NCBI RefSeq assembly: GCF_003044185.1
Contig: NZ_PYYB01000001.1
Location: forward strand, 1,426,001-1,490,000
Source of the DNA: Paraconexibacter algicola
GTDB taxonomy: Bacteria; Actinomycetota; Thermoleophilia; Solirubrobacterales; Solirubrobacteraceae
Reading direction: 5' to 3'
DNA: 64,000 bases
The notes below the pieces were generated by a model, which saw nothing but the letters and a program-made list of their open reading frames with translations, was not told the DNA's origin and searched no databases. Position numbers and translations under genes: made by a program. Of the stretch, positions 48,754 to 57,757 are shown piece by piece; position 1 is the stretch's first letter; each line of letters starts with the position of its first letter.

Positions 48754-48808
48754 TCCGGCAGTATCGCAGGGTCATGTCCCAGGCCCTGCCGGTCGATGAC
48801 CCCGAGTG

Positions 48809-50872
48809 ATGCGCCTCCCCGTCCTGCTGCTGTCCGCGACCCTCGTCGCACTCTCCTCCTCCCCGGCCCTCGCGGCCCCGTCGCTGCGGCAGGACGGGCG
48901 TACCGTGCGGTTCGCCGATCCGACCGTCACGGCGACCACGACCACGACCCTGCAGGGCGACCTCGTCGAGCTCAGCCACGGCCCCGAGCGCTATCTGCTC
49001 GAACGTCCGTCCGGTGAGCTCGTGCCCGTCGACTTCGGGGACGTGGAGCTGCCCGAGGCCTCCCTCGACAACCCGGTCACCGCGACCGTCACCGACGCCG
49101 GGGAGGTGCGCCGCGCGACGCTCGACACGTCCCCGCGCTCCACGACCGGCCCCGTCAGCTCCCACCGCGCGTACGTGGCGAAGGTCGGCAACCGCGGCAC
49201 GCTGGACAACGGCGACGGCACCGCCGCGACCGACGCGCAGATCGGCGCGCTCGTCGACACCGCCCTGGCCCGCTGGCAGGAGGAGAGCAACGGCGCGATC
49301 TCGAGCTTCACGCGCGTCGACCTGCGGACCTTCTCGACGGCGTCGGACTGCTCGAGCGGCTCGACGCTCTACAACGAGGCCGCCACGAACGCCTACCCGG
49401 GCGTCTCGTTCTCCTCCACGTCGGGCAACCACCTGATCGTCGTCGGCGGCACGACCTGCGGCGGCGGGATCGGGACGGTCGGCACGAGCATCGCCAGCGG
49501 CGGCCGGCTGAACTTCAACTGGAGCCCGACGAAGAACCTCCACACGCTGCTGCACGAGCTCGGTCACAACCTCAGCCTCGGGCACGCGCACGCCTGCACG
49601 GACGCGCTGCCCGGCTGCGCGAGCGTCGGCGAGTACGGCAACCTCTACGCGATCATGGGGGCGACGGTCGTCGCCGACCCGCCGTTCACCCCCGCGGCGC
49701 TCGACAGCTTCGAGCGCGCCCGGCTCGGGATCGCGGACCCGGACGAGATCGCCGACGTGCGGCTGCCGGCCGGCCGGCGGACCGTCCGCGCCACCTACGA
49801 CCTGCGCGCCCGCGGGACCGCCGCCGGCCTGCGCGGGCTGCGGCTCGTCGACCCGGTCGGCGGGGCGGTGCGGTTCGTGGACTGGCGCAGCGGCGGCGCC
49901 CGCGACGCGCTCTCCTACTACGCGTCCTCGCTGGCGACGTTCCAGACCCGGATCCCGAACCCCGGGATCACCGTCGAGCAGGTCGAGGCCGACGGGCGCA
50001 CCGCGACGCTGCAGGCGTACCCGAAGACGAACCCGGCCGCCGGCGACGTGTTCGGCCTGACCGCGGGCCGCGCGTTCACCCGGGGCGGCACGACGGTGAC
50101 CGCGGTCGCCCTCGGCACCCCGGGCGACCCGAGCTCGACCGCGCGCGTCGAGGTGGCGCTCACCGACCCGACCGTGGCGCCCGACACCGCGATCGTCGCC
50201 GGGCCGGACGAGGGCGCGACGATCCTCGATCCGTCCCCGGTCCTGCGCTTCGGCCCCGACCCCGCCGAGCCCGGCCTGCAGCTCGACTGCCGCCTGGACG
50301 ACGCGGCGTGGGCGCCGTGCACGAGCCCGCTGACCCTGCCCGAGCTCGCCGACGGCCTGCACGTCTTCCGCGTCCGCGCGCGCGACGGCGACACGCTGCT
50401 GGACGACTCCCCCGCGGTGCGGACCTTCGCGGTCCTCCGGGGTGCGCCCGCCCCCGCGGAGGACACGGCCGCCCCGGCCGAGCCGCCCCCTGCCGCCGCG
50501 ACCCCGACCACCGTCCCTGCCATCCCGGTGACCGCCACGCCGGCGACCGCCGTGCCCGCGGACGCCCGGCGACCGGCGAAGCTCACCGTGCGCCGCGCGT
50601 CGCTGTCGGCGGCCAGGCGCCGGCTCGTCGTCGTCGCCCCGATCAGCGCCCGCGCCTCCGGCGCCGTGCGCGTGACGCTGCGGGCGGCCGGACGGACGCT
50701 GCGGTTCCGGGCGCCGGTCGTCCCGGCCCGGGGCCGGGTGACGATCCGCCGCACGGTCGGCGCCGCGATCGCGCGCGCCCGCACCGCGACGTTGACGCTC
50801 GCCTACGCGGGCGACGCGGACACCGCGCCGCAGACCGTCACGGTCCGCCTGCCGCTGCGCCCCGGGCGCTGA
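48809..50872 (+). CDS. Secreted metzincin-like metalloprotease
   Basis: The 687-residue protein has a Sec signal (cleavage after A-L-A-A near residue 22). The zinc motif is H-E-L-G-H-N-L-S-L-G-H-A-H (H-E-x2-H-x2-G/N-x2-H), with the metzincin Met-turn Y-A-I-M-G later, so it is likely an active gametolysin- or reprolysin-like protease. Two possible Cys-rich loops flank it. The C-terminal half has Ig-like or stapled domains, an Ala/Pro/Thr-rich linker and a final beta module. An in-frame GTG lies one codon upstream of the ATG. A strong convergent terminator follows. Confidence 0.85.
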   Translation: MRLPVLLLSATLVALSSSPALAAPSLRQDGRTVRFADPTVTATTTTTLQGDLVELSHGPERYLLERPSGELVPVDFGDVELPEASLDNPVTATVTDAGEVRRATLDTSPRSTTGPVSSHRAYVAKVGNRGTLDNGDGTAATDAQIGALVDTALARWQEESNGAISSFTRVDLRTFSTASDCSSGSTLYNEAATNAYPGVSFSSTSGNHLIVVGGTTCGGGIGTVGTSIASGGRLNFNWSPTKNLHTLLHELGHNLSLGHAHACTDALPGCASVGEYGNLYAIMGATVVADPPFTPAALDSFERARLGIADPDEIADVRLPAGRRTVRATYDLRARGTAAGLRGLRLVDPVGGAVRFVDWRSGGARDALSYYASSLATFQTRIPNPGITVEQVEADGRTATLQAYPKTNPAAGDVFGLTAGRAFTRGGTTVTAVALGTPGDPSSTARVEVALTDPTVAPDTAIVAGPDEGATILDPSPVLRFGPDPAEPGLQLDCRLDDAAWAPCTSPLTLPELADGLHVFRVRARDGDTLLDDSPAVRTFAVLRGAPAPAEDTAAPAEPPPAAATPTTVPAIPVTATPATAVPADARRPAKLTVRRASLSAARRRLVVVAPISARASGAVRVTLRAAGRTLRFRAPVVPARGRVTIRRTVGAAIARARTATLTLAYAGDADTAPQTVTVRLPLRPGR

Positions 50873-54445: not shown

Positions 54446-57400
54446 CTAGTTGAGCCCGCCCGCCGCGATGACGTTCCCGCCGCCCGCGGCGATGACGCCG
54501 AGGCCGTTGTCGGAGATCAGGTTGAGCCCGCCCGCGGCGACGACGTTCGCGCCGCCGGGAGCGATGACCTTGGCGCCGTCCGGCAGCGTGATCAGGTTGC
54601 CGCCGCCCGGGGCGATGACCCCGAGGCCGTTGTCGGAGATCAGGTTCAGGCCACCCGCCGCGATCACGTTCGCGCCACCGGCCGCGACGACGTTCGCGCC
54701 GCCCGGGGCGATGACGTTGCCGCCCCCGGAGGCGACGACGCCGTTCGGGCCGATCCGCCACAGGCCGCTGGTCACCCTGGTCACCTGCGCGGCCTGCGGG
54801 TCGCCGCTGACGGTGCCCCGGCCGAGCGACATGATCGACACGCCGAACTGCTTCGTCGCGCCGACGACCTGCTCGGTGGCCCCGCCGGTGAGCTGGGCCA
54901 CCTGTCCGCCGAGCGCCTTCAGGCACGACGTGATCGCGGCGAAGAACTCCGGGAGGCCCGCCGCGCTCGCGCGCGGCGCGCTCGACAGCGTGAACCGCCG
55001 CGAGGATCGCGACCAGGTGTACGTGCGGCCCGTGACGGTCGTGAAGCCGCCCTTCTCGCCGCGGTCCCGCACCCGGAAGCTCGTGTAGCCGTAGATCCGC
55101 TCGCCGGAGCGGTCCGCCCACTCGCTGAGCACGTGGATGGTGCCGGCCTTCTTCGGCGTGACGGTCGCCGCGGTGACGCCGGCGGAGCTGGTCTGCCGGG
55201 TGACGTCGCTCCCGCCGACCTCGTGGAGGTCGATCCGGACGCGGGCGCCCTGGACGCGACGGCCCGCACGGTCGCGGAGGGTGACGCCGAACGTGTTCGG
55301 CTGCCCTGCGGTGAGCGAGAAGTCGTCGGCCACCGGGCCCGGGTCGGTCGAGCTCAGGACGCCGGAGGTGCGCCACGTGACGATGTCGAGCTTCGACTGG
55401 TCGGTCGGCACGTTGACCGTGACGTCGCCGTCCTTCGCGATCGACTTCACGATCGGATCCGCGGCGCTCTTCGTCGGCACGAGGACGAGGTCCGAGCCGC
55501 TGCCGCACCCGGCGGCCTTCAGCTGGGCGAGCGCGAGGTCGAGGTCGTCCTGCTTCAGCGACGCGCGCAGCGCCGAGCAGTGCGACCGGTCACCCTTCTC
55601 GCCCGCCCAGTACTGCAGGCGGACCGCGAGCTGCGCCGTCGTGCTGGTGGCGTGCGTGCTCTTCGCGGCGGGGGTCTGGGCGATGACCTCGCCGACCTTC
55701 CACCTCCCGCCGCCCGGACGCTTGGGGAGGTCCTCCGCGTCGCGGATGACCCGGTCGGCCGTGACGTCGGCGTAGACGACGCCGCGCAGGACCTTGTCGC
55801 GGGCGTCGTCGAGGCTCCGCCCGACGACGGCGGGCATCGCCCGCGAGGCCGCCGTGTCCTGCGTGCCGCCGACCACGAAGCCGAACGGGGCCGGCGGGGT
55901 CACGACCACCGGCGGGGTCGCGCCACCGCCACCGCCGCCGCTGCCACCGCCACCGGGCGGCGGGGTGGAGCCGCCGGGCGGGGTCGGTCCGCCGTCCCCG
56001 CCGCCCGCCGGCGCCGGGGCCACGGTGATCTGCCGCGAGGCCGTCGCGGTCTCGCCGCCGTTGTCGGACACCCGCACCTCGACGGTGTAGGTGCCCGCCT
56101 GCGTGAACGTCGCCTGCGCGGTCGTCCCGACCACGTCGTCGAAGTCCCCGTCGTCGTCGAGGTCCCAGCGCGTGTCGGCGATCGTGCCGTCCGGGTCGGA
56201 GGAGGTCGACGTGAAGGTCGTGACCTGCCCGGCCACCGGGGCCGCGGGCGTGTAGTCGAACGACGCGGTCGGCGCCTGGTTCACGGTGCCCCGCAGGACG
56301 CTCGCGCGGATCGGGGAGCCGGCCGGTCCCTGCGCCCACCACGTGACCACCGGCGGGCCGTCGCCCCCGGCCGAGACGAAGGGGTAGTAGGCGTGGTCGT
56401 CGGGGTCGCTGATGCGCTGCGCCGAGGTCCAGGCACCGTCGCGCGGATGGCGCGCGACGTACACGTCGCGGTAGCCCGAGTCCTGCTGCGGCTGGGTCCA
56501 GATCACCGTGGCGGTGCCGTCCGCCTCGAGCGCGGCGCCCGGGACGAACTGGACGCTGCCGGCGGAGGTCGTGTTGACGGGATCCAGGATGTGCTCGGTC
56601 CACACGCCGTTGCGCCGCGTGAACGCCGTGGGGAGCACGTCGGGGAACGAGCCGATGGCGCCCGGGACGTCGGCGTAGACGGCCAGGACCGCGTCACCCG
56701 CGGCGTTGGTCACGAGGGGCCGGATGTCGTCCTCGTAGGCGGTGTCGCTCGTGTTCCACAGTCCGCGCCGGTCGCTCACGAGCTGCGGGGCCGAGAGGCT
56801 GTCGTCCGCGCCGATCGTCCGCGCCTGGATCGACCAGTCGCGGCTGCCGCTGACGAACTGCGACCAGCTGTAGGTGGCCAGGACGCCGTCGCCGTCACGC
56901 GCGAGGGCGAAGCTGATCGCCGCCGCGTTGAGGACGTCGCAGCTGCCGTGGTTGAGCTGGCCCGAGGGGTCCCAGGAGCCGCCCGGGTTCTGCGTCGCGT
57001 AGCGGACGGTGTTGCACCCTCCGTCGTGCCGACTCCAGGCCGCCACCGCGGTCCCATCGGTGCGGGTCGTGACGACGACGTTCTCGTTGCGGACGTAGCT
57101 CCCACCCGAGGGGCTCAGGCCGACGACGGACCCGGCCGCATACGTGCCGTTCTCGTCCTGCAGCGTCACGGCCTGGACCGCGCTGCTCGCGTCGGCGTTG
57201 GCGTGACGGTCCCAGGCGATGGTCACGTCGCCTTCGTCGTTGATCGCGACCGCCGGCCGGGTGGGCCACTCGCCGTACGGCGCTGCGACGGCGGCGGCCG
57301 TCGCGGCCGGCGTCCACGTCGTGGTGCCGCGGCGCTTCACCGCGTAGCGGACGCGACACGCGTACGGCTCGCCGTTCGTGGACGGGTCCAGGCACGAGAC

Positions 57401-57757
57401 CCAGGCGACCACGACGTCGCCGGCGGGGTTCGACGCGATCGGGAACCGCGCGTCGACCGAGCCGTTGGACAGCTTCTCGTCCTCCTCGCCGGTGAGGCGG
57501 CGTTCCGGCCCGAAGGTCCCGCCGGCCGAGCGGGTGCGGGCGAAGAGGTCGCAGCGGCCGCCGACGCACTCCAGCCAGGCCACGGTCGTGGCGCCGGTGC
57601 CGTCCGAGGCCGACACGTTCTTGGTGTGCGAGGCGCTCCCGTCGGGCGAGGACAGGGTCTCCACCTGCCACGTCGGCCCGGCGGCGGACGCCGGCGAGCA
57701 GCAGAGGACGGCGAGGAGCGTCGTCGCGAGGGCGACGACCCGCTGGACCGGGCGCAT
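54446..57757 (-). CDS. Large secreted protein: BNR-like propeller, PKD, PASTA-like and octapeptide repeats
   Basis: The 1,103-residue protein has a Sec signal (cleavage near A-S-A-A at residue ~26). Residues ~30-490 contain recurring W/V-A-W-x-S and 'G-D-V-V-V-A-W' strands that suggest a BNR/sialidase-like propeller. A PKD domain (D-P-D-G-T-I-A-D-T-R-W-D-L-D-D-D-G-D-F) follows near 505-590, then a Gly/Pro linker, a PASTA-like segment (M-P-A-V-V-G-R-S-L-D-D-A), Ig-like or Cys-bearing regions, and the octapeptide tail. The role is unknown; adhesion or carbohydrate binding is inference. A GGAGG Shine-Dalgarno sequence precedes the ATG. Confidence 0.8.
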   Translation of the reverse strand: MRPVQRVVALATTLLAVLCCSPASAAGPTWQVETLSSPDGSASHTKNVSASDGTGATTVAWLECVGGRCDLFARTRSAGGTFGPERRLTGEEDEKLSNGSVDARFPIASNPAGDVVVAWVSCLDPSTNGEPYACRVRYAVKRRGTTTWTPAATAAAVAAPYGEWPTRPAVAINDEGDVTIAWDRHANADASSAVQAVTLQDENGTYAAGSVVGLSPSGGSYVRNENVVVTTRTDGTAVAAWSRHDGGCNTVRYATQNPGGSWDPSGQLNHGSCDVLNAAAISFALARDGDGVLATYSWSQFVSGSRDWSIQARTIGADDSLSAPQLVSDRRGLWNTSDTAYEDDIRPLVTNAAGDAVLAVYADVPGAIGSFPDVLPTAFTRRNGVWTEHILDPVNTTSAGSVQFVPGAALEADGTATVIWTQPQQDSGYRDVYVARHPRDGAWTSAQRISDPDDHAYYPFVSAGGDGPPVVTWWAQGPAGSPIRASVLRGTVNQAPTASFDYTPAAPVAGQVTTFTSTSSDPDGTIADTRWDLDDDGDFDDVVGTTAQATFTQAGTYTVEVRVSDNGGETATASRQITVAPAPAGGGDGGPTPPGGSTPPPGGGGSGGGGGGATPPVVVTPPAPFGFVVGGTQDTAASRAMPAVVGRSLDDARDKVLRGVVYADVTADRVIRDAEDLPKRPGGGRWKVGEVIAQTPAAKSTHATSTTAQLAVRLQYWAGEKGDRSHCSALRASLKQDDLDLALAQLKAAGCGSGSDLVLVPTKSAADPIVKSIAKDGDVTVNVPTDQSKLDIVTWRTSGVLSSTDPGPVADDFSLTAGQPNTFGVTLRDRAGRRVQGARVRIDLHEVGGSDVTRQTSSAGVTAATVTPKKAGTIHVLSEWADRSGERIYGYTSFRVRDRGEKGGFTTVTGRTYTWSRSSRRFTLSSAPRASAAGLPEFFAAITSCLKALGGQVAQLTGGATEQVVGATKQFGVSIMSLGRGTVSGDPQAAQVTRVTSGLWRIGPNGVVASGGGNVIAPGGANVVAAGGANVIAAGGLNLISDNGLGVIAPGGGNLITLPDGAKVIAPGGANVVAAGGLNLISDNGLGVIAAGGGNVIAAGGLN
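54449..54739 (-). repeat. Tandem octapeptide-encoding repeats at the 3' end of a secreted-protein gene
   Basis: Read on the minus strand, 12 units of 24 nt (one is 27) encode the pattern V-I-A-A-G-G-(A/G/L)-N. They begin with V-V-A-S-G-G-G-N and end exactly at the stop codon with V-I-A-A-G-G-L-N. A larger unit containing L-I-S-D-N-G-L-G occurs twice. Confidence 0.85.

Follow-up and report, generated by a model that had tools for sequence, protein, structure and literature searches.

The window analyzed here, 64,000 nucleotides of the Paraconexibacter algicola genome, encodes on its minus strand an exported protein of 1103 amino acids (P0001; Table 1). Its N terminus resembles a signal peptide by eye, in keeping with the original prediction of a large secreted protein. 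Residues 27 to 485 contain recurring G-D-x-V-x-A-W motifs and look like a beta-propeller; no Pfam family matched within these residues. Next come a PKD domain and, below the Pfam cut-offs, PASTA-like and Big_1 Ig-like domains, the last of which is conserved in a protein of Nocardioides soli. On the plus strand of the window (48806-50872), a separate exported protein bears a metalloprotease-like HELGHNLSLGHAH motif, recognized by eye.

Residues 1007 to 1103 consist of twelve consecutive repeat units. In order, these read VVASGGGN, VIAPGGAN, VVAAGGAN, VIAAGGLN, LISDNGLG, VIAPGGGN, LITLPDGAK, VIAPGGAN, VVAAGGLN, LISDNGLG, VIAAGGGN, and VIAAGGLN, the last standing directly before the stop codon (54446-54448). 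Both the count of twelve and the ending on a repeat boundary had been claimed from the sequence and are confirmed. The strict eight-residue period with conserved G-G and N, claimed at the same time, holds for the nine units that match [VL]-[VI]-A-x-G-G-x-N; the two LISDNGLG units have lost G-G and N, and the nine-residue LITLPDGAK breaks the period once. No more than two strict units appeared in any of 20,000 shuffles of the tail, against nine observed, and self-identity of the tail peaks at lags 8 (0.47) and 16 (0.42) and does not exceed 0.26 at the remaining lags from 2 to 19. The array is not a chance product. Tandem Repeats Finder (TRF) detects two periods in the array DNA, one of 24 bases and one, at block level, of 123 bases, so the array probably grew in part through block duplication.

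Table 1. The exported protein of 1103 aa and its parts, in window positions
Feature	Position	Strand	Basis
ORF, 1103 aa, exported protein with array (P0001)	54446..57757	-	ORF and Pfam domains
Putative signal peptide, residues 1-26	57680..57757	-	By eye
Residues 27-485, G-D-x-V-x-A-W motifs recurring every 60 residues or so	56303..57679	-	Motif listing
PKD domain, residues 493-579	56021..56281	-	Pfam PF18911, E 2.1e-10
PASTA-like domain, residues 641-701	55655..55837	-	PF03793, E 0.00041, 20.7 bits, below cut-off 23.2
Big_1 Ig-like domain, residues 819-879	55121..55303	-	PF02369, E 0.00014, below cut-off
Conserved stretch preceding array, residues 925-1000	54758..54985	-	Alignment with Nocardioides soli and G033 contig 221
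Array, twelve units, residues 1007-1103	54449..54739	-	Ends at stop codon
Unit 5, variant LISDNGLG	54620..54643	-	Sequence
Unit 7, nine-residue LITLPDGAK	54569..54595	-	Sequence; ITLPDGAK also in Nocardioides soli array
Unit 10, variant LISDNGLG	54497..54520	-	Sequence

The unit is conserved in phase and at the protein level

A DNA pattern for three consecutive units, run over named genome contigs, matched at least 120 stretches, and 80 loci are listed. The consensus is [VIL]-[VI]-[AS]-[AQSP]-G-G-[GAL]-N; a minor type reads L-I-[GS]-x-[DN]-G-[GAS]-[GST]. In 568 units drawn from 82 proteins, G occupies position 5 in 84% and N or D in 13%; N occupies position 8 in 83%, A position 3 in 76%, and G position 7 in 72%. 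These figures lean on the motif used, and position 6 is G by construction. Octads eight residues downstream of strict units have G at position 6 in 83% and N at position 8 in 76%, and the position-8 N drops to 0 to 7% at offsets 5, 7, 9, 11, and 12, a test of phase that is partly built in because the loci were selected by three consecutive units.

Only 8 of 171 pairs of adjacent units with identical protein sequence also share identical DNA; therefore, the peptide itself, rather than the DNA, is conserved. The codon-position contrast is 0.059, 0.039, and 0.475 over the 80 listed loci, where it is partly built in since the search pattern itself dictates the first two codon positions, and 0.205, 0.094, and 0.358 in the window, which was not chosen by pattern. 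The conclusion is accordingly based on the identical-peptide pairs and the window values. When position 5 is left unconstrained under a looser rule, the residue before the G is N, D, or G in 100 of 120 variant units (67 of 87 distinct octads). Outside the arrays, this holds for 1166 of 4433 G residues and for 292 of 970 occurrences of the same loose motif.

Sorted by title, the 80 listed loci fall into six named phyla plus a metagenome-assembled genome (MAG) titled Cyanobacteria, RYN_339: Pseudomonadota 19, Bacteroidota 18, Verrucomicrobiota 16, RYN_339 11, Acidobacteriota 6, Actinomycetota 5, Gemmatimonadota 4, and unspecified 1, an assignment in which MAG titles may be wrong. At the level of the order, a two-unit DNA pattern is found in 5 of 232 genomes and the reversed pattern in none; at the level of the genus, the two-unit pattern is found in two of eight. 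In a 115-genome sample of the phylum of one listed locus (L123), three units in a row occur in that locus's own genome only. The repeat is rare and sporadic in occurrence, yet almost unchanged between distant phyla. All 17 whole genomes chosen as matching contain the two-unit pattern and none contains the reversed one, with 2 to 9 matches per genome in 16 of them and 83 in RYN_339. These 83 matches are distributed over many contigs, several of the arrays lying shortly behind a lipobox, and constitute an expanded lipoprotein set (RYN_339 loci L102, L112, L115, L122, L132, L142, L155, L164, L175, L179, and L181).

The nearest proteins resemble the window protein beyond the array. The Nocardioides soli protein aligns at 45% over residues 783 to 1063 and has ITLPDGAK within its array, and a protein from contig 221 of genome G033 aligns at 33% over residues 635 to 1097, has LISDNGLG units, and ends in ...IIGTASGN. 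In genome G005, the last unit of an array, ...VISAGGAN, again lies at the stop codon. A search of 396 genomes of the phylum with the tail protein gave six that match at E ≤0.001, including the window genome; at the six loci outside the window genome, the central open frames lacked a VIAxGGxN array, several being of low complexity, and we did not count them as carriers. Plasmids gave no match to the tail. Viral contigs contain the two-unit DNA pattern in 30 stretches, none of which gives two strict units in the frame read. Homolog alignment added two more viral loci (L222 and L223); of these, L222, a portal-like protein, has one isolated VVSAGGAN instead of an array and was set aside.

Carriers of the array are mostly exported proteins and vary in architecture. 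Of 60 ORFs that include a 5' end, a simple in-house rule predicts a signal peptide in 49; a lipobox is present in 8 of 59. Among 75 carriers, the first 25 of 43 Pfam families include ricin B lectin (11/75), DUF4214 (7/75), and NHL (6) heads. The array ends exactly at the C terminus in 24 of 75 ORFs; other arrays are internal or near the N terminus, the early ones behind a lipobox chiefly in RYN_339. Since arrays occur in C-terminal, internal, and N-terminal positions, the repeat suits a structural module. Neighboring ORFs (135 from 23 loci chosen from the 80) contain no recurring assembly or secretion gene. A few small clusters by sequence are present among them, and some of these join closely related organisms (Hymenobacter, Chitinophaga).

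Two groups of carriers stand out by sequence. A DPW motif is common to 17 of 81 ORFs, most with an ECNIxxYNNGxWxxYxEL-like module. This unnamed C-x-DPW...ECNIxxYNNGxWxxYxEL module lies at the N terminus of L113, L138, L153, L160, L177, and others, from Bacteroidota, Gemmatimonadota, Acidobacteriota, and Pseudomonadota; two DPW ORFs tested against Pfam had no match. The second group (L140, L148, L154, L156, and L165) comprises small exported Sphingomonas proteins of 124 to 154 aa in which a short L-[RQ]-V-W end comes after three units.

Relation to named repeats and predicted structure

Pfam and NCBIfam scans of the window protein place no family on the tail, and searches of PDB sequences, by phmmer with the tail and by a profile of eight tails, gave no credible match, which upholds the view that the repeat is unlike RTX or pentapeptide repeats. 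Among the 75 carriers, the repeat has no name in the first 25 of 43 Pfam families or the first 25 of 31 NCBIfam families. Literature searches by strings of the repeat, by shorter strings, and by DUF4214 or ricin with repeats found no description, minor-type strings had no match, and the literature found on octapeptide solenoids did not describe a VIAxGGxN repeat. Within the scope of these searches, the tail is one example of a real, undescribed octapeptide repeat family that extends far beyond the window. The best reading is that this family is unnamed but of an already known general kind.

RTX proteins carry a nine-residue GGxGxDxUx repeat with calcium-binding Asp. The VIAxGGxN repeat is likewise short, Gly-rich, and borne by exported proteins, often at the C terminus, but it has a period of 8 rather than 9, Asn in place of Asp, and practically no acidic residues. 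We rejected RTX membership on the period, the absence of acidic residues from the nine strict window units, and the lack of an RTX Pfam match in the window protein. Composition also bears on a metal- or ligand-binding stack like RTX, which had been proposed for the tail. Regular ladders of Asn could conceivably bind something, but charged residues occupy 0.14% of positions in strict units, and the whole window array holds three Asp and one Lys, with no Glu, Arg, His, or Cys. Because charged residues are nearly absent, metal binding is disfavored, and we give this proposal next to no credence.

The CsgA motif of curli is a strand followed by G-x-x-N, and curli and Fap repeats have a period of about 20 or more residues. 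The octapeptide array resembles them in the strand followed by G-x-x-N and differs in its period of 8. The sole literature match to strings of the repeat is a FapC construct that contains NIAAGGGNQQSN (PMC11787515). The Curlin repeat PF07012 is absent from the window genome (0/1; the E. coli control was positive), and curli membership was rejected. Ice-nucleation proteins are beta-repeats with an octad-related period. Here, there is no 16-residue super-period, as identity at variable positions is 0.690 between neighboring and 0.691 between next-neighboring units (201 pairs each); nor is there a Thr-x-Thr array or, in the window protein, a Pfam match. We rejected ice-nucleation membership on this equality of lag 1 and lag 2.

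AlphaFold2 modeling of the window tail with seven relatives places strand in most units, mostly 8 residues apart, at a mean pLDDT of 51.6 and a pTM of 0.43. For the Hymenobacter DPW protein (L138) with fourteen relatives, the head is modeled with two helices and three strands at pLDDT 80 to 91, followed by an array devoid of secondary structure at pLDDT about 45 to 55. Foldseek found no match at E ≤0.001 for either model; among the nonsignificant matches to the window-tail model are left-handed beta-helix enzymes and ice-binding proteins. Neither model is proof of any fold, because AlphaFold2 reportedly predicts solenoids too readily for repeat sequences (PMC11795689). From the models, a beta-strand repeat is plausible. 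The beta-solenoid of the original prediction is possible on these models, which give strands in the window tail, at low confidence, and none in the L138 array. Since two-residue hairpin turns are usually built of [NDG]-G and P-D-G is a usual choice for three-residue ones, the unit sequences suggest an antiparallel, stackable sheet as a serious alternative to a solenoid.

Possible roles of the tail

We favor, at a probability of roughly 45%, a beta-strand/turn repeat that acts as a structural tail on exported proteins and is self-associating or adhesive. Each unit would form one short beta-strand (about x-N-V-I-A-x) and a two-residue G-G, N-G, or D-G turn, and the units would stack into a neutral beta structure rich in valine, isoleucine, and alanine, serving as a tail or stalk. 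Most likely, copies would associate with one another, the cell surface, or the matrix, thereby displaying the attached heads in many copies: propeller-like, PKD, PASTA-like, and Ig-like domains in the window protein, and ricin-type lectin or DUF4214-type domains elsewhere. The repeat itself, its phase, its conservation as a peptide, its spread, and its carriers are direct observations; we infer the strand/turn geometry and the display function as well as self-association, the last from composition and carriers only. This reading draws on the phase and peptide-level conservation of the unit, the preference for N, D, or G before the G in variant units, the modeled strands about 8 residues apart, the predicted export, the kinds of head, and the variety of array positions. 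Weighing on the other side are the low confidence of the window-tail model, the Hymenobacter array modeled without strands, the lack of significant Foldseek matches, the absence of a recurring assembly or secretion gene among the 135 neighbors, and the rarity of the repeat.

Several other readings account for part of the same evidence. A monomeric beta-solenoid stalk, close to the idea first put forward, would have two octapeptides per 16-residue coil and form a rigid spacer or cap that does not self-associate. The modeled strands about 8 residues apart and the kinds of protein among the nonsignificant Foldseek matches are what it would lead one to expect, but the pLDDT of 51.6 comes from a method reported to be solenoid-biased for repeats (PMC11795689), the 16-residue super-period is missing, and the PDG unit and N-G/D-G turns fit hairpins at least equally well; we consider such a stalk unlikely. 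A flexible, essentially unfolded spacer, selected for small, neutral composition and not for fold, would agree with the unstructured L138 array and the low-confidence window tail. However, nothing in such a spacer would require N at position 8, G at position 6, and beta-branched residues at positions 1 and 2 to stay in phase in several phyla, or the protein to stop at a unit boundary, as 24 of 75 ORFs do; we are similarly disinclined to accept it.

In a further reading, the tail would trimerize the protein as an intertwined beta-helix of the T4 gp5C and VgrG kind, which likewise consists of octapeptides. In the six-residue strand of gp5C, position a is mostly G and position b mostly N or D (PMC3004832). 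VIAxGGxN units share the eight-residue period, the Gly-rich kink, and a G-[ND] before the short strand, here G-N at positions 7 and 8 before V-I-A-A (G7 in 72% and N8 in 83% of the 568 units, N8 leaning on the motif used), and the tail has a weak PDB match to a putative type VI secretion protein (E 1.9). However, the dominant valine at gp5C position g corresponds to repeat position 5, where G stands in 84% (again leaning on the motif). No Gp5 Pfam family is found in the window protein at E values up to 10, or among the first 25 of 43 families for the other 74 carriers, and, unlike gp5C and VgrG, the carriers are exported proteins of many architectures; a trimer of this kind is improbable. A C-terminal sorting or secretion signal for a dedicated machine would explain why 24 of 75 ORFs end on a unit. 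It is disfavored because arrays are also internal or just after a lipobox (the 8 of 59 ORFs above) and have no recurring partner gene among the 135 neighbors; 2 to 9 two-unit matches in 16 of 17 genomes are also few for a signal common to many proteins, and we rate the idea as very improbable.

A bolder form of the self-associating tail is doubtful in our estimation. Here, VIAAGGGN-type octapeptides would be an undescribed cross-phylum self-assembly module, whose antiparallel V/I/A-lined sheets stack like silk or functional amyloid and polymerize secreted lectins, DUF4214-type proteins, and surface proteins into matrices. Each unit would be a six-residue strand with a two-residue hairpin turn and uncharged faces, and the one-residue insertion in LITLPDGAK would exchange a two-residue hairpin turn for one of three residues, P-D-G.

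If the reading as a structural strand/turn tail is true, a named repeat profile would label the most conserved part of a class of exported proteins in several phyla. It would also offer a simple, nearly charge-free eight-residue peptide for studying the folding and assembly of neutral beta repeats outside the cell, and the lectin and DUF4214 heads make a matrix or adhesion role directly testable.

The window genome has two further matches to the tail, which belong to a prophage-like gp5-type repeat protein and were treated as shared composition. A second, different octapeptide repeat, AYDSATVR/AYGSATVS, is encoded in this genome by a prophage-like 461-aa ORF (L041, G000:C3:459746-460327) that matches the Pfam families Gp5_trimer_C (2.8e-11) and DUF7666 (7e-12).
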